Below, one piece after another: positions 3,073 through 45,318 of a stretch of DNA of 46,013 nucleotides; positions within the stretch are counted from its first letter, which is position 1, and the number at the start of each line of letters is the position of its first letter. The notes under the pieces are model-generated. The model had not been told where the DNA came from. It did not search any database and saw nothing but the letters and a program-made list of their open reading frames with translations. The DNA lies in assembly GCA_026394155.1 (NCBI GenBank), contig JAPKYT010000053.1, positions 1 to 46,013 of the forward strand, given 5' to 3'. A program made the translations under genes and the position numbers. The DNA comes from a bacterium. GTDB taxonomy: Bacteria > Electryoneota > RPQS01.

Positions 3073-4065
3073 ATGAACCACATTTCTGCACGCCGGGCGG
3101 ATGAGATCTTTCGAGCGGCGGCGGGCAAGCAAATCGCCGTGTTAGGAGACTTCATGCTCGACCGGCACCTCATGGGATCGGTGCGCCGCATCAGTCCCGA
3201 AGCCCCCGTGCCGGTGGTCGAGGTGGAATCCGAAACGACCGGACTGGGCGGAGCGGGGAACGTGGTGCAGAATCTCGCCGCGCTGGGGGTCGTGCCGGTG
3301 GCTTTCGGTGTGGTCGGCGATGATGCCGCGGGTCAGGTGCTGCGCGGTCATCTCGAGAGCATCGGGGCGCTGACGGACGGCATGCTGGTGTCCCGTTTCC
3401 GTCGCACCACCGAGAAAATGCGCATCATTGCGCACGATCAGCACGTGGTTCGGGCCGATCGCGAGAGCGCGGAGGATATCCGGCCCGATGACGAAAACCT
3501 CCTGCTGGAGAAACTGGATGCCGCCCTGTCCGGCCTCCGCGGTCTTATCCTTCAGGACTACAACAAGGGCGTTCTGACCAGCCGGGTGATCGAAGAATCG
3601 CTGAAGCGGGCGGCGGCCAAAGGCGTTCCCGTTTCCGTGGACCCGAAGTTCGATCACTTCTTTGACTACCGGCGCGCGCACCTGTTCAAGCCCAACGTAC
3701 GCGAACTCGAGCGCGCACTGGGGATGCGAATTCAGACGGACGACGATCTGAGCGCGGCCGGTAAGCAACTCATTGATCGCCTATTGCCGGATGTGCTGAT
3801 GGTCACCCGCGGCGAGCGGGGAATGACCCTCTTTCTCGACCACCAGCGCGTGGAGCACATTCCTACGCGGGCCAAGAAGGTGCATGATGTTTCGGGCGCG
3901 GGAGACACGGTTATTGCCGCCTGCGTGGCGGCCGAGGCGGGAGGAGCCGGCCCGGTGGAGGCGGCGGTGATCGCAAACTACGCGGCCGGCGTGGTCTGCG
4001 GCGAGGTGGGAGTGGTCCCCATCGAACGCGAGCGCCTGCTAACGGAGATTTCCGAACAGGACTGA
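3073..4065 (+). CDS. rfaE1: D-glycero-beta-D-manno-heptose-7-phosphate kinase (HldE kinase half)
   Basis: PfkB-family sugar kinase that makes heptose-1,7-bisphosphate on the route to ADP-heptose for the LPS inner core. Seen: the N-terminal VLGDFMLDRHLMGSVRRISPEAPVPV segment typical of HldE/RfaE1, GGAGNVVQNLAALG, the DQHVVRADRE region, and the PfkB signature VSGAGDTVIAA with the catalytic Asp. In Escherichia coli this domain is fused to the adenylyltransferase; here the partner (rfaE2) is a separate gene starting about 85 bases downstream, with a tRNA gene between. Length is 330 aa. The presence of the pathway supports a Gram-negative, LPS-bearing cell. Confidence 0.95.
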   Translation: MNHISARRADEIFRAAAGKQIAVLGDFMLDRHLMGSVRRISPEAPVPVVEVESETTGLGGAGNVVQNLAALGVVPVAFGVVGDDAAGQVLRGHLESIGALTDGMLVSRFRRTTEKMRIIAHDQHVVRADRESAEDIRPDDENLLLEKLDAALSGLRGLILQDYNKGVLTSRVIEESLKRAAAKGVPVSVDPKFDHFFDYRRAHLFKPNVRELERALGMRIQTDDDLSAAGKQLIDRLLPDVLMVTRGERGMTLFLDHQRVEHIPTRAKKVHDVSGAGDTVIAACVAAEAGGAGPVEAAVIANYAAGVVCGEVGVVPIERERLLTEISEQD

Positions 4066-4073
4066 TTTTCGAC

Positions 4074-4150
4074 GGGCGACTAGCTCAGCTGGTTAGAGCG
4101 CTGGTCTCACATACCAGAGGTCATAGGTTCAAGTCCTATGTCGCCCACCA
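4074..4150 (+). tRNA. tRNA-Val (anticodon CAC) with encoded CCA
   Basis: A complete cloverleaf is visible. The acceptor arm GGGCGAC pairs with GTCGCCC. The D-arm is GCTC...GAGC and the anticodon stem is CTGGT/ACCAG, with loop CTCACAT giving anticodon CAC (valine, GTG codons). The T-arm is CATAG/CTATG with GGTTCAAGT. Discriminator A is at 4147 and the CCA end is encoded at 4148-4150. It lies 8 bases after the rfaE1 stop, and its last A is also the first base of the most likely rfaE2 start codon. No promoter is seen in the 8-base gap, so it is probably read from the rfaE1 transcript. Confidence 0.96.
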
Positions 4151-4644
4151 TGAGCCCAACACCTGCTCTCCGCGGGCTGCTGTCGCGCTTAGACGCGGCC
4201 CGGCGCTGCCGCATCGAACGCATTCAAGGCGGCACCATCGTTTTCACCAACGGCGTCTTCGACGTCCTGCACCGCGGTCATCTCGACTATTTGCGCGAGG
4301 CGCGCGCCTTGGGGAGTATGTTGATCGTCGGCTTGAACAGCGACGAATCGGTGCGCCGCATCAAAGGCCCGAAGCGACCGCTCTATTCAGAGGAGGACCG
4401 CGCCGCCGCTCTGGTGTCTCTGCGCTTCGTGGATTTCGTGGTGATCTTCGACGAGGATACTCCCCTGTCGCTCATCGAGGAACTGAATCCGCACCTGTTG
4501 GTCAAGGGCGGCGACTATCTGCCGGAAAACGTGGTCGGCTATGATCACGTCACTCGAAACGGCGGGCGGGTGATCGTCATTCCTTTTAAGGAAGGGTATT
4601 CCACCAGCCGGCTCATCGAGACCGTGGTGGAGCGGTACGGTTGA
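4150..4644 (+). CDS. rfaE2: D-glycero-beta-D-manno-heptose 1-phosphate adenylyltransferase (HldE transferase half)
   Basis: Nucleotidyltransferase that makes ADP-heptose from heptose-1-phosphate and ATP. Motifs: VFTNGVFDVLHRGHLDYL (HxGH nucleotide-binding site), GLNSDESVRRIKGPKRP, LVKGGDY and the GYSTSRLIE signature that ends the domain. The protein is 164 aa from ATG 4150. That ATG shares its A with the tRNA CCA end. The only other in-frame ATG (4138) lies inside the tRNA T-arm, and no GTG or TTG follows before the HxGH motif; CTG 4177/4180 remain possible. No Shine-Dalgarno sequence precedes 4150. The enzyme identity is firm, the start is not. Confidence 0.92.
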   Translation: MSPTPALRGLLSRLDAARRCRIERIQGGTIVFTNGVFDVLHRGHLDYLREARALGSMLIVGLNSDESVRRIKGPKRPLYSEEDRAAALVSLRFVDFVVIFDEDTPLSLIEELNPHLLVKGGDYLPENVVGYDHVTRNGGRVIVIPFKEGYSTSRLIETVVERYG

Positions 4645-4647
4645 TCC

Positions 4648-5970
4648 ATGTTTGAAGATCTCACGGCACGGCTGGATCAAGTTTTCCGAAATCTGCGGGG
4701 AATCGGAAAACTGACGGAAGCAAACATCCGCGAGAGCCTGCAAGATATCCGGCGGGTTCTGCTCGATGCGGACGTGAACGTGCAGGTGGCGCGTGAATTT
4801 TTGACTCGAGTCGAAGAACGGGCCGTCGGTCAGGAAGTCCTGAAATCGGTTTTACCGGCGCAGCTCATCGTCAAGATCGTCTATGACGAGCTGGTGCACC
4901 TGTTAGGGGAGAAAGAGAGCCGGCTGGCGAGTTCTCCGCAACCGCCCACGGTCCACATGGTGGTCGGTCTTCAAGGTTCGGGAAAGACCACTTTCTGCGC
5001 CAAGCTGGCGCGTCATCTGAAAACCAAGGGCAAGCGGCCGTTGCTGGTCGCTGCTGACCTGCAACGCCCGGCGGCGCAGGATCAGCTTCAGGTGTTGGGA
5101 GATTCCATCGGAGTGCCCGTCTTCCGGGGGAGCGGTAAGGATCCGGTTCTGGTGTGTGAGGACGCGCTGAAACACGCGCGCCGCATCAGTCTCGATCCGG
5201 TTATTCTCGACACCTCGGGCCGGCTGCACGTGGACGACGATCTCATGGCCGAGCTCGAGCGCATCCAGAAGGTCGTGCGGCCCGCTGAAATCCTGTTTGT
5301 GGCCGACGGCATGACCGGTCAGGATGCGGTCAATTCGGCGCGTGCCTTTCACGACCGCTTGCAGTTCACCGGCAGCGTGTTGACCAAGATGGACGGCGAT
5401 ACCCGCGGCGGCACGGCCCTGTCCATCGTGCACGTCACCGGCAAACCGCTGAAGTTCGTATCGGTCGGCGAGAAGCTCGAGGCTCTCGAACCGTTCCACC
5501 CCGATCGCATGGCGGGGCGCATCCTCGGCAAGGGCGACATCGTCAGTCTGGTGGAGAAGGCGCAGCAGGTGGTGGGCGAGGATCAGGCCGCCCGCATCGA
5601 GGCCAAACTTCGTCGCGCCGAGTTCACGCTCACTGACTTCTTGGATCAGCTTCAGCAGCTCAAGAAAATGGGTTCGCTGCAAAGCCTGCTGGGCATGATC
5701 CCCGGCATGGGCGCGCAAATGCGCGACGTTCAGGTGGACGAGCGTGGCCTGAAGCACATGGAAGCGCTGATCCTCTCGATGACTCCGCGGGAGCGCGACC
5801 ATCCCGGCATCTTGAACGCGCGGCGTCGCCGGCGCATCGCGGCGGGAGCGGGACTCACGGTGCAGCACGTGAACCGTCTCATCCAGCAGTACGATCAGAT
5901 GGTCGCCATGATGAAGAAGCTGCGCAAGGCCGGGCCCGGCCAGATGCGGCGCGTCATGGGCGGCAATTGA
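4648..5970 (+). CDS. ffh: Signal recognition particle protein Ffh (SRP54)
   Basis: GTPase that binds signal sequences together with 4.5S RNA and delivers ribosomes to FtsY at the membrane. Order: helical N domain (1-90), G domain with GLQGSGKTTFCAKLA (G1), ADLQRPAAQDQL, DTSGRLHVD (G3) and TKMDGDTRGGTAL (G4 region), then the methionine-rich M domain with MGSLQSLLGMIPGMG and the helix-turn MTPRERDHPGILNARRRRRIAAGAG. Length is 440 aa, normal. It begins 3 bases after rfaE2 and precedes rpsP, as in many bacteria (ffh-rpsP-rimM-trmD-rplS). Confidence 0.97.
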   Translation: MFEDLTARLDQVFRNLRGIGKLTEANIRESLQDIRRVLLDADVNVQVAREFLTRVEERAVGQEVLKSVLPAQLIVKIVYDELVHLLGEKESRLASSPQPPTVHMVVGLQGSGKTTFCAKLARHLKTKGKRPLLVAADLQRPAAQDQLQVLGDSIGVPVFRGSGKDPVLVCEDALKHARRISLDPVILDTSGRLHVDDDLMAELERIQKVVRPAEILFVADGMTGQDAVNSARAFHDRLQFTGSVLTKMDGDTRGGTALSIVHVTGKPLKFVSVGEKLEALEPFHPDRMAGRILGKGDIVSLVEKAQQVVGEDQAARIEAKLRRAEFTLTDFLDQLQQLKKMGSLQSLLGMIPGMGAQMRDVQVDERGLKHMEALILSMTPRERDHPGILNARRRRRIAAGAGLTVQHVNRLIQQYDQMVAMMKKLRKAGPGQMRRVMGGN

Positions 5971-41637: not shown

Positions 41638-42804
41638 ATGAAAATTCACGAACATCAAGCCAAAGAACTTCTGGCGCGCTACGCCGTTCCCGTACCGCGC
41701 GGTCGCGCGGCTTTCTCGGTGGAGGAAGCCATGGACATCGCCGACAGTCTGGGGAAATATCCGGTGGTGGTCAAGGCGCAAATTCATGCCGGCGGCCGCG
41801 GGAAAGGCGGCGGCGTGAAAATCGCCAAGACCAAAGCCGAGGCGCGGCAATACGCCTCGCAGATTCTTGGCATGCAGCTGGTCACACACCAGACCGGGCC
41901 CGAGGGGAAGAAAGTGCAGCGGTTGCTCATCGAAGAGGGCATGGACATCAAGTGCGAACTCTACGCGGGCCTCTTGCTCGACCGCGCGTGCGCGCAGAAC
42001 GTGTTCATGGTGTCCACCGAAGGCGGCATGGAAATTGAGAAGGTGGCCGCCGAGACCCCCGAGAAGATCGTCAAGGTGCATATTCATCCGGCTATCGGAT
42101 TTCAGCGCTTTCACGCGCAGAAGCTCGCCTTCGCACTTGCTCTCACCGGCGACGCCTTCAAGAGCGCCGTGAAGTGCTTTACGGCAATGTACAAGGCGTA
42201 TGATGATCTGGACGCGAGCCTGCTCGAAATCAATCCGCTGGTGGTGACGGGGGATAACCGGGTGATCGCTCTCGACGCCAAGATGAATCTCGACGACAAC
42301 GGTCTTTTCCGCCATCCCGACATCGAAGCCATGCGTGACCTGAGCGAAGAGGAGCCCGCCGAAGTGGAAGCTTCGGCGGCCAATCTGAACTACATCAAGC
42401 TCGACGGCACGGTGGGCTGCATGGTCAACGGCGCGGGCTTGGCGATGGCGACCATGGACATCATCAAGCTGCACGGCGGCACTCCGGCGAATTTCCTCGA
42501 CGTCGGCGGAACGGCCAGCGCGGAAACGGTGGAGAAGGGTTTTCGCATTATTCTCTCCGACAAGAACGTCCGCGCCATTCTCATCAACATTTTCGGCGGC
42601 ATTGTGCGCTGTGACCGCGTGGCAGGCGGAGTCATCGAGGCTGTCAAAAAGAGCAAGGTGAGCGTGCCGGTGGTCGTCCGCCTGGAAGGCACGAATGCGG
42701 ACATCGCCGCCAAGCTGCTGAGCGAATCCGGTCTCAGCTTCGTCGTCGCCAAAGACCTGACCGATGCTGCGCAAAAGGCAGTTTTGGCAGTGAAGGGCAC
42801 ATGA
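41638..42804 (+). CDS. sucC: Succinyl-CoA synthetase beta subunit
   Basis: ATP-grasp subunit of the citric-acid-cycle ligase that forms succinate and ATP/GTP from succinyl-CoA. Seen: [67 protein letters not shown] split in two conserved blocks, [22 protein letters not shown] and [13 protein letters not shown]. 388 aa, normal. In most genomes sucD follows immediately; here two unrelated genes intervene, the first overlapping the sucC stop by four bases. Confidence 0.96.
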
Positions 42805-43679
42805 CCGATTACCCAACCCTGACCTTTCCGGACGATTTCGGATTCGAGAACCTTAGTGCGATTCACGATCTTACCACGCGATTCGTCGCATCGCTCGGCC
42901 CCGATGGCCCGAAGAAGGTGGTGCTTGATCTTCGTTGTGTGACCAAGTTCACTCCGTTTTCTGGCTGTTATCTCGCGTCGTTGGTCAAGGACCTGGTTAG
43001 CCTCGGGATTAATGTCGAGGTGCTTCGGCCTGTGCACACGGGCGCGTCGCATCAGCTCGATCACCTCGGCATTGTCGCGCACTTCTTGGGACACCCGGTC
43101 CCCACCACGAAACGAGTGCGATCTGTACCTTTAGTCCACCTGCATGGCAAGGACTTTGATCTTGCGATTCGCATGTCGAAGATGGTGCGAGTCTCCCTGG
43201 AGCTGACCGCCGCCAATTTCTACCTCGTTCAGCTCTGCCTGAAGGAACTCCTTCTGAATGCCTTCGATCACGGTCAGTCGCCGAAAGGCACGTTCTGCTG
43301 TGCATACGGCCTCAGGAATCTGCGGATCGTCCGTGTGTGCACAATGGATCACGGCATGGGTGTGCTCGCGCACCTCAGGCAGAATCCCAAGTATGCCAAT
43401 CTGACTTCAGACACTGAAGCTCTCGCGCTATGCGTGCGGAAGGGTGTCTCTGGGACAAGATGGACAAGAGGATTGGGACTGTTCTATGTGACTCAGGCAT
43501 TATTGCATGCTGGCGGGGAGATCGCTATGGCTTCGGGCAGTGCGACGATGCTTCTGCAGGAAGGCAAGCCGCCGGTTTTTGGCAATCTGTCCACACCGTT
43601 CACGGGCACTGTCGTGAACGTCACGTTCAAGGTCAGAAAGGCGTACCGGTTCATTCTGGATGACCTGGAGGATAGATGA
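42801..43679 (+). CDS. STAS-like plus GHKL ATPase protein inserted in sucCD
   Basis: 292 aa, not matched to a named gene. Residues about 1-100 look STAS-like ([25 protein letters not shown]). Residues about 120-280 form a GHKL/HATPase domain: N-box [11 protein letters not shown] (Glu149, Asn153), G1 box DHGMG (183-187), G2 box TRGLGL (222-227) and the closing TGTVVNVTF strand. There is no histidine phosphorylation domain, so it is closer to anti-sigma or partner-switch kinases than to sensor kinases. It starts in ATGA overlap with sucC and overlaps the following STAS-like gene by four bases. GC is visibly lower than in its neighbours, suggesting transfer. Confidence 0.75.
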
Positions 43680-44020
43680 AAAAGGGCACAACTCTGACCA
43701 TTGCTGTCAAGCCGTTCCTTGACTCGAAGGTTACGACCCGTGAAGATGGAGAGGCTTTGCGGGACTACCTGCAGGAGCACTGGGAGCAGGTGGAAATGAT
43801 CGTTCTCGATTTCCGAGGACTTCAAATCGCTTCTGTCTCATTTCTTGATGAGGCATTCGGGATGCTGGCCGAAGCCCATCCGAAGAAGGAGATTGGTCAC
43901 AAGATTAGGGTCGTTCGCATGGACGCAAACGATCAGATCATGTACGAGTCCATCTTGAAATCGCGCGAGTCCCAGTTTCGAAAAACAAAACGAGCGAGCC
44001 GCTCGGAAACCGTCAACTGA
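43676..44020 (+). CDS. STAS-like DUF4325-type protein
   Basis: 114 aa small cytosolic protein. The segment [22 protein letters not shown] (residues 41-62) fits the DUF4325/STAS-like pattern (V-x-L-D-F-x-G-x-x-x-x-x-x-S-F-x-D-E). It is preceded by [12 protein letters not shown], and the end is Arg/Ser/Lys-rich. In partner-switch systems a STAS protein is the substrate of a GHKL kinase; Ser53 or Ser55 would lie at the corresponding helix start, but phosphorylation is speculation. It overlaps the ATPase gene by four bases and ends 7 bases before sucD. A hand count of 43681-43980 gives about 52% GC. Confidence 0.75.
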
Positions 44021-44027
44021 GCTACAA

Positions 44028-44903
44028 ATGTCCATTCTTCTCACTCAACACACGCACGTTCTTGTGCAGGGCATCACTGGCGGGGAAGGGACGTTCCACA
44101 CCGCGCAGATGCTCGATTATCATACCAAAGTGGTGGGGGGAGTCACTCCATGCAAGGGCGGCCAGACGTGGGAGGGCAAGCTTCCCATCTTTAACACGGT
44201 TTCGGATGCCGTCAAAGAGACCGGTGCCAACGCGTCCGTGATCTTTGTTCCGCCCGCTTTCGCCGCGGACGCGATTCTCGAAGCGCTGGACGCGGGAATC
44301 GAGCTCATCGTGACCATTACCGAGGGCATCCCGGTGCGCGACATGGTCAGAGTCAAACACGCTCTCAATCAATCCCAGTGCCGCATGGTCGGACCCAATT
44401 GCCCCGGTGTTATTTCTCCGGGAATCGGCAAAATGGGCATCATGCCCGCCTTCATTCATCGGCCGGGCAAGTGTGGTGTCATCAGCCGCTCGGGAACGCT
44501 GACTTATGAAGCGGTCAAGCAGCTCAGCGACCGCAACATCGGCCAGTCCACCTGTGTGGGAATCGGCGGCGATCCGGTCAACGGTTCGTCCTTCACCGAT
44601 ATTCTCCGGCTCTTCAAGGATGATCCCGGTACCGAGGCGGTGGTGATGATCGGCGAGATCGGCGGGTCCGCCGAGGAAGAGGCCGCGGCCTACATCCGGA
44701 AGGAATTCAAGAAGCCGGTGGCGGCTTTCATCGCGGGATTGACTGCGCCTCCCGGCCGTCGCATGGGGCACGCGGGCGCAATCATTGCCGGCGGCAAGGG
44801 AACGGCAACCGAGAAGATCAAGGCGCTGCGAGAGGCGGGCATTCACGTGACGGATTCCCCCGGCGAGATCGGCGCTACGCTCGAGCGCGCGCTGAAGAAG
44901 TAA
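44028..44903 (+). CDS. sucD: Succinyl-CoA synthetase alpha subunit
   Basis: CoA-binding, phosphohistidine-bearing subunit of the succinyl-CoA ligase. Motifs: [35 protein letters not shown] region, [36 protein letters not shown] and the active-site His in [17 protein letters not shown]. 291 aa. Only a weak purine signal (TGAG) precedes ATG 44028. It is separated from sucC by 1.2 kb of inserted genes, whose expression must pass through for sucD to be made unless an internal promoter exists. Confidence 0.96.
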
Positions 44904-44919
44904 GAGGATCGCCAACCGC

Positions 44920-45318
44920 ATGGAAAAAACCCTGATGATTATTAAGCCCGACGCCGTTGCCGCCGGGCGAATCGGAGACGTCCTCGCCCGCGCGGAACGT
45001 GAGGGTTTTGCCATCACCGGCCTGTGCATGCTGCTCCTCTCGAAGGAGCAGGCGGAAGCCTTCTATTCCGTGCACCGCGAGCGTCCGTTCTTTGCGCCGC
45101 TGGTGAAATACATGTCAAGCGGGCCGGTGGTTGTCGGGCGGCTGGAACGCGAAAACGCGGTCGAACATTGGCGCAAGGTGATCGGCTCGACCGATCCCCT
45201 AAAGGCTGATCCGGGAACGATCCGCCGCATGTTCGGCGCGAGTATCGAGGCCAACGCGGTGCATGGATCGGACTCTCCGCAAAACGGAGAGATCGAGACG
45301 GAGTTCTTTTTCGCGTAA
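44920..45318 (+). CDS. ndk: Nucleoside diphosphate kinase
   Basis: Equilibrates nucleoside tri- and diphosphates through a phosphohistidine. N-terminal MEKTLMIIKPDAVAAGRIGDV, the MSSGPVVVGRLERENAV block, and the catalytic His in ANAVHGSDS followed by EIETEFFF. At 132 aa it is slightly shorter than the usual 135-145. It lies 16 bases behind sucD, a frequent arrangement. A stem-loop follows 25 bases after the stop. Confidence 0.96.
   Translation: MEKTLMIIKPDAVAAGRIGDVLARAEREGFAITGLCMLLLSKEQAEAFYSVHRERPFFAPLVKYMSSGPVVVGRLERENAVEHWRKVIGSTDPLKADPGTIRRMFGASIEANAVHGSDSPQNGEIETEFFFA

Follow-up and report, generated by a model that had tools for sequence, protein, structure and literature searches.

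The window, by which we mean the whole stretch of 46,013 nucleotides that was analysed, holds a succinyl-CoA synthetase operon in which the two subunit genes are separated by two other genes, all four on the forward strand. The gene for the beta subunit, sucC (41638..42804, +; NF001913, E=1.9e-172), is the upstream wall of what we will call the slot, and the gene for the alpha subunit, sucD (44028..44903, +; NF004230, E=2.7e-137), is the downstream wall, with ndk 3' of it (44920-45318). Between the walls lie a gene for a 292-aa STAS-GHKL protein, a VapK-like kinase (42801..43679, +), and a gene for a 114-aa VapS-like DUF4325 STAS protein (43676..44020, +). The sucC/kinase and kinase/STAS genes overlap by 4 nt each, in both cases ATGA, and 7 nt separate the STAS gene from sucD. 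The annotated ORFs and the measured spacing give the same gene order and four-base overlaps as the initial annotation, which also put the GC content of the second gene at about 52%. We measure 51.3% for the DUF4325 gene and 55.7% for the GHKL gene, against 59.9% for sucC and 61.1% for sucD. The genes around the pair are sucC, sucD and ndk; there is no adjoining sigma factor or phosphatase gene, as had been claimed, and no PIN gene or other effector gene next to the pair either.

The kinase assignment draws on motifs, homologues and profiles together. Against the Pfam HATPase models the protein gives sub-cut-off matches only (HATPase_c_2, E=0.0025), and the SpoIIAB profile matches it weakly (E=1.3e-3). 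Over its full length it also matches phrog_3364 (E=4.9e-20), a family of phage proteins with no known function. All of the ATP-site motifs are present, three of them in boxes placed by alignment: E149/N153 in the N box, E149...N153...H157 (43245..43271, +), D183xGxG187 in the G1 box, D183-x-G-x-G187 (43347..43361, +), G224xG226 in the G2 box, R223-G-x-G-L227 (43467..43481, +), and finally G269-T270. N153 is kept in all 26 sequences that cover its column and E149 in all but one, which has Asp (G026), while D183, G185, G224 and G226 are conserved throughout the alignment and G187 in every kinase from a sucC|sucD slot. The structure model of the GHKL part is poor (mean pLDDT 59), yet a fold search with it finds GHKL proteins at a probability of about 1.0. 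The model and the alignment place an N-terminal STAS-like domain at about residues 1-100 (42801..43100, +), with a modelled beta-alpha-beta-alpha-beta order. The motifs, the SpoIIAB profile and the fold search concur with the earlier reading of this protein as a GHKL ATPase with a STAS-like N-terminus.

The second protein is a member of DUF4325 (PF14213, E=1.3e-10; 41.3 bits, cut-off 23). Its sole credible sequence match in the PDB is Escherichia VapS, 9z7o (E=3.5e-13 by profile, E=1.1e-5 with the sequence alone). Its model has a pLDDT of 84, and a fold search puts STAS entries at ranks 19-46, which is not significant. VapS comes from one of two systems, CapK/CapS and VapKSC, described by Chambers et al. 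2026 (PMC13373217). VapKSC consists of a STAS-GHKL kinase, VapK, a STAS antitoxin, VapS, and a PIN toxin, VapC (PMC13373217). The STAS-GHKL kinase CapK is activated by ssDNA and phosphorylates a serine of its STAS partner, S54 of CapS; the phospho-serine of VapS, S48, was inferred from mutants, and phosphorylation of the STAS partner frees a promoter or the PIN toxin (PMC13373217). In partner switches of the SpoIIAB/AA type the phospho-serine stands where STAS helix 2 begins, and the VapS position corresponds to Ser58 of SpoIIAA (PMC13373217).

The initial annotation proposed Ser53 and Ser55 as phosphorylation sites. In an ungapped alignment it is Val54 that falls on S48 of VapS, so the known site is flanked by both serines (S53-V54-S55, codons at 43832..43840, +). 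A gapped alignment that puts S53 or S55 on S48 was dropped because, with no gap introduced, the DF strand motif and the next Phe are already equally far apart in the two proteins. As toxin-linked controls we used the vapK-vapS-PIN operons of G032 (L004, same phylum), L072 and L089, with the PIN gene identified by Pfam in L004, L072 and L076. The S48 position is V, A, I or G in 11/11 STAS proteins from sucC|sucD slots, whereas it is S or T in 5/5 toxin-linked ones. The following position, S55 in the window, is Ser in all 11, and all 11 have D-E where the controls show N and a variable residue. This +1 serine also occurs in PIN-less pairs of other phyla and in the MoxR|DUF58 pairs described below. 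Since Ser55 is invariant and Ser53 is not, we take Ser55 to be the better candidate and, judging by conservation, the most likely phosphate acceptor of the STAS protein. The kinases have their own signature. P52-F53 is invariant in those from sucC|sucD slots, and the toxin-linked controls have A/V and N/H/E at these positions. The aromatic residue that probably binds ssDNA by stacking is F54 in VapK and W68 in CapK (PMC13373217). In that column, which we placed by alignment and by the numbering of other VapKs and not from the Escherichia VapK sequence, the window kinase has K49; an aromatic residue is found in 4/10 relatives versus 7/7 toxin-linked kinases.

How far does this arrangement extend? 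Our sample comprised 39 genomes of the LCP-89/Electryoneota-like phylum, mostly drafts; in 35 of them the sucC-sucD junction was scorable. The kinase-STAS pair lies between sucC and sucD, always in the same gene order, in 11 of the 35 (G000, G017, G018, G022, G024, G026, G029, G030, G032, G033 and G036). A contig break falls inside or beside the cassette in four of these 11 (G018, G026, G029 and G036, with only the start of the kinase gene visible in G029), and strain variation may lie behind it; in G017 the N-terminal part of the kinase shows a frameshift. Wherever the cassette is complete, sucD follows directly 3' of it and there is no PIN gene. The initial annotation had treated the pair as a unit, and as a unit it recurs in ten other genomes at the same insertion site. 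Because ten other assemblies show the same order, chance and assembly artefact are ruled out as its source.

The slot is empty in 21 of the 35 genomes (gap <=118 nt) and holds other cargo in the remaining three. One of these has a methyltransferase gene (G025). In another (G016) an AbiJ_NTD4/PDC-S32 candidate defence gene follows sucC directly (L113: 110-1039; PADLOC E=1e-98), with a GC content of 31.8% versus 54.6% for sucC; it lies close to the end of its contig, and this genome, 79% complete, yielded no sucD. The third (G011) lacks the kinase gene and has in its place a putative membrane ORF, predicted to contain two hydrophobic stretches, next to a STAS gene beside sucD (L057: 4320-5236). 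This ORF has a sub-threshold match to MerC only. The STAS protein of this genome, having no kinase, may have another partner.

Outside the phylum the junction looks different. Among the 82 genomes listed in which sucC and sucD share a contig, 78 by eye count leave no more than about 250 nt between the two genes. One genome has a 131-aa ORF of the 23S rRNA intervening-sequence type (23S-IVP) between sucC and sucD (G261, L125: 1568-1963), and in another the two genes are 7.6 kb apart (G076). Counting both of these, cargo is present in 14/35 genomes within the phylum versus 2/82 of those listed outside it (Fisher p=4e-7, with kinship ignored). In 386 sampled genomes outside the phylum nothing closely related to the sucC|sucD pair turned up. 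The best relative there (G158, E=1e-33) lies between acyl-CoA synthetase and kbl-like genes (L127: 2905-7694), among metabolic genes on one strand. In the literature we found no report of genes inserted between sucC and sucD.

The trees tell different stories for the walls and for the cargo. In the tree of SucC plus SucD each family with at least two members is a clade, and the presence of the pair (G011 counted) requires at least 10 changes on it. In the tree of the pair, all of the sucC|sucD pairs form one clade (support 96/91), separate from toxin-linked VapKs, from the MoxR|DUF58 pairs and from other PIN-less pairs. For the pair tree, the AU test rules against uniting G030 and G033, two genomes of one genus, as in the host tree (p=4e-4), and likewise against uniting family f3 (p=2e-5), although these groups were picked after the trees were seen and the p-values are flattering. 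Pairwise identities give the same picture. G030 and G033 share 90% of SucC and 89% of SucD, with 31% for the kinase and 43% for the STAS protein, while G018 and G022, from different families, share 67% and 71% of SucC and SucD, with 59% and 60% for the kinase and STAS protein. The distances among kinases and among STAS proteins correlate more closely with each other (Mantel r=0.93) than with those of SucCD (r=0.44 and 0.55), so we conclude that the two genes move as a unit. Windowed identity along the end of sucC and the start of sucD shows no recombination edge in the walls, and co-transfer of the flanks with the cassette was set aside on this ground. Old transfers are a possible history of the exchange, as is fast divergence in place combined with some transfers.

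Base composition sets the cargo apart as well. It is AT-richer than the walls in 10/10 carriers examined, by 9-24 points for the STAS gene and about 4-26 for the kinase gene, and in G024 third-position GC falls from 92% in the walls to 48% in the cargo. The AbiJ-type and methyltransferase cargoes are likewise AT-richer than their walls. A purely vertical, ancestral regulator of the TCA cycle is weakened by the patchiness, the conflicting trees and this AT-richness. At the other extreme, the window might hold a one-off recent foreign insertion with no meaning beyond its own genome, and the low GC relative to the flanks and the closest SucCD relatives (G003, G009 and G008), none of which has the pair, would suit this. 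We consider it very improbable. A single recent insertion is contradicted by the recurrence of the pair across the phylum, where ten further genomes from four other families carry it at this junction; the STAS protein nearest to that of the window is in a sister family and is 49% identical; and the window copy does not look like the newest arrival, since its AT shift is the mildest of the ten measured. The initial annotation proposed that the module was acquired horizontally. This holds in the sense that the conflicting trees and the AT-richness point to exchange between lineages, but not as a single acquisition here, since the slot is used throughout the phylum.

The same evidence bears on the idea of a dedicated regulator of succinyl-CoA synthetase, in which the STAS protein, held or released by a GHKL kinase sensitive to ATP/ADP, would bind SucC or SucD and tune assembly or activity to energy charge. 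One clade does keep to a single junction across five of the phylum's families, so a function linked to sucCD could also be at work, and a position between the subunits with overlapping codons would give matched synthesis. However, the closest SucCD relatives do without the pair, its alleles are replaced within one genus (G030/G033), unrelated genes occupy the same slot, its homologues turn up at MoxR|DUF58, next to phage integrases and in the vicinity of TA genes, and it is AT-rich in every carrier examined. We therefore regard such a regulator as unlikely. The initial annotation offered two outputs for the module, a tie to citric-acid-cycle flux or the exploitation of a strong constitutive operon. 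The second fits best; we see no positive evidence for the first, and it is disfavoured by the unrelated cargo that swaps into the same slot.

There is a second slot of this kind. On contig C115 of the genome that the window comes from, a MoxR ATPase gene is immediately followed by a further GHKL-STAS pair, distantly related to the first (L058: ~3730-4877). C115 ends after this pair, and a DUF58 gene opens contig C28. The order MoxR-GHKL-STAS-DUF58 is intact in G001, G002 and G008 (L059, L060 and L061). Other genes occur here too: the MoxR|DUF58 junction of G010 holds a DndB/DpdB-like gene and a small GIY-YIG gene (L130: 1951-5008), and in G006 DndB/DpdB-like and GIY-YIG genes precede DUF58 (L131). 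In G003 and G007 no genes lie between MoxR and DUF58. The cargoes of this junction are again AT-richer than MoxR.

The junction between sucC and sucD is found empty, refilled or holding other, defence-like genes again and again across the phylum, and we therefore read it as a probable site for swappable genes and not as a component of the citric acid cycle. We think it somewhat probable that it is a fixed slot inside the operon for an exchangeable cassette, probably of a defence or stress type, which is expressed with the TCA operon. Since the stop and start codons overlap, the cassette would be co-transcribed and co-translated with sucCD, and the core operon would supply steady expression. 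A stress or phage signal would then activate the STAS-GHKL kinase, which would phosphorylate the STAS protein, with S55 as the probable acceptor, and so free or block a partner that is not encoded alongside; the benefit would be defence or stress survival. The exchange as a unit, the AT-richness, the AbiJ-type gene and the phage relatives beside integrases incline us towards a role in conflict or stress, for which the core operon would serve as carrier. Counting against a defence cassette are the lack of an adjacent effector, the phospho-site position that is not Ser or Thr, the Lys in the aromatic column and the lack of a PADLOC match. The pair might instead be a general stress or partner-switch regulator that relies on the operon for expression only and has no defence role; its target might, for example, be a sigma factor or a second-messenger enzyme whose gene lies elsewhere. 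The SpoIIAB-like kinase profile, the lack of an adjacent toxin and the +1 serine signature common to PIN-less pairs of other phyla all speak for this. We nevertheless doubt it, since an AbiJ-type gene alternates in the same slot and allele exchange with AT-richness would be unusual for a housekeeping regulator.

Returning to the exchangeable cassette, we tentatively propose something broader, for which we would claim slightly less than even chances. Standing slots within operons, sucC|sucD and MoxR|DUF58, would swap two-gene conflict cassettes while their walls descend vertically, and the window would hold a new toxin-less branch of VapK/VapS in which the phospho-serine has moved and the target is distant or host-encoded. 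Immune genes are usually sought in defence islands, prophages and the gaps between core operons. If our proposal is true, they would also lie in a place that is rarely looked at, between the subunit genes of a TCA enzyme, where kinase-STAS pairs are exchanged as units and an AbiJ-type gene takes the same position. The pair also splits the kinase/STAS switch from the known toxin and the known phospho-site, which offers a direct test of a change of target.

It remains to compare the pair with known kinase-STAS systems. The initial annotation suggested that the module may be undescribed, and this does not survive, since the type of pair is already known as VapK/VapS and CapK/CapS (PMC13373217). 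We did find no description in the literature of the toxin-less sucC|sucD subclade, nor any function assigned to exactly this pair. Its idea of a compact GHKL kinase and STAS protein with the logic of a partner switch is upheld by the VapS match and the intact ATP-site motifs. Neither window protein has a PADLOC match. A pattern scan of IMG/VR gave no viral relatives of the kinase or of VapS, and the phage relatives were found by distant tblastn only. Two other occurrences should be recorded. G032 holds a complete vapK-vapS-PIN operon (L004: 546-2341) alongside its sucC|sucD pair, and G080, from another phylum, has a toxin-less GHKL-STAS pair near genes for a DUF6036/AbiEii-type nucleotidyltransferase and an HTH protein (L128: 2609-6357).

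Like SpoIIAB/SpoIIAA and RsbW/RsbV, the window encodes a GHKL kinase and a STAS protein, and the SpoIIAB profile match, though weak, fits this. Unlike them, the window kinase has a STAS domain of its own and no sigma factor adjoins it; the phospho-serine position of the SpoIIAB/AA type is Val54 in the window STAS protein. The toxin-less pairs of temperate phages (Streptococcus Javan172 and LYGO9; Francisella KIRK, PMC7924643) are similar in having a kinase of 293-307 aa and a STAS protein of 99-114 aa, and they lie near an integrase with no PIN gene annotated alongside; KIRK is set beside them by description. However, Javan172 and LYGO9 retain Thr or Ser where VapS has S48, and they are distant in the pair tree. 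CapK/CapS shares a STAS-GHKL kinase gene followed directly by the gene of its STAS partner, but the window proteins, at 292 and 114 aa, have neither room nor a match for an HTH or wHTH domain, and sucD and ndk stand downstream of the pair in place of an immune operon. The likeness to VapKSC lies in a STAS-GHKL kinase that has no HTH, followed by a short STAS protein, with the GHKL ATP site kept in the window. The differences are that the window pair has no PIN gene and that its clade has P52-F53 in the kinase, no Ser or Thr at the S48 position and Ser at +1. We have not filed the pair as VapKSC or as CapK/CapS, since defining features of each were looked for and are lacking. On sequence grounds, the pair in the window is a diverged, toxin-less relative of VapK/VapS (CapK/CapS).
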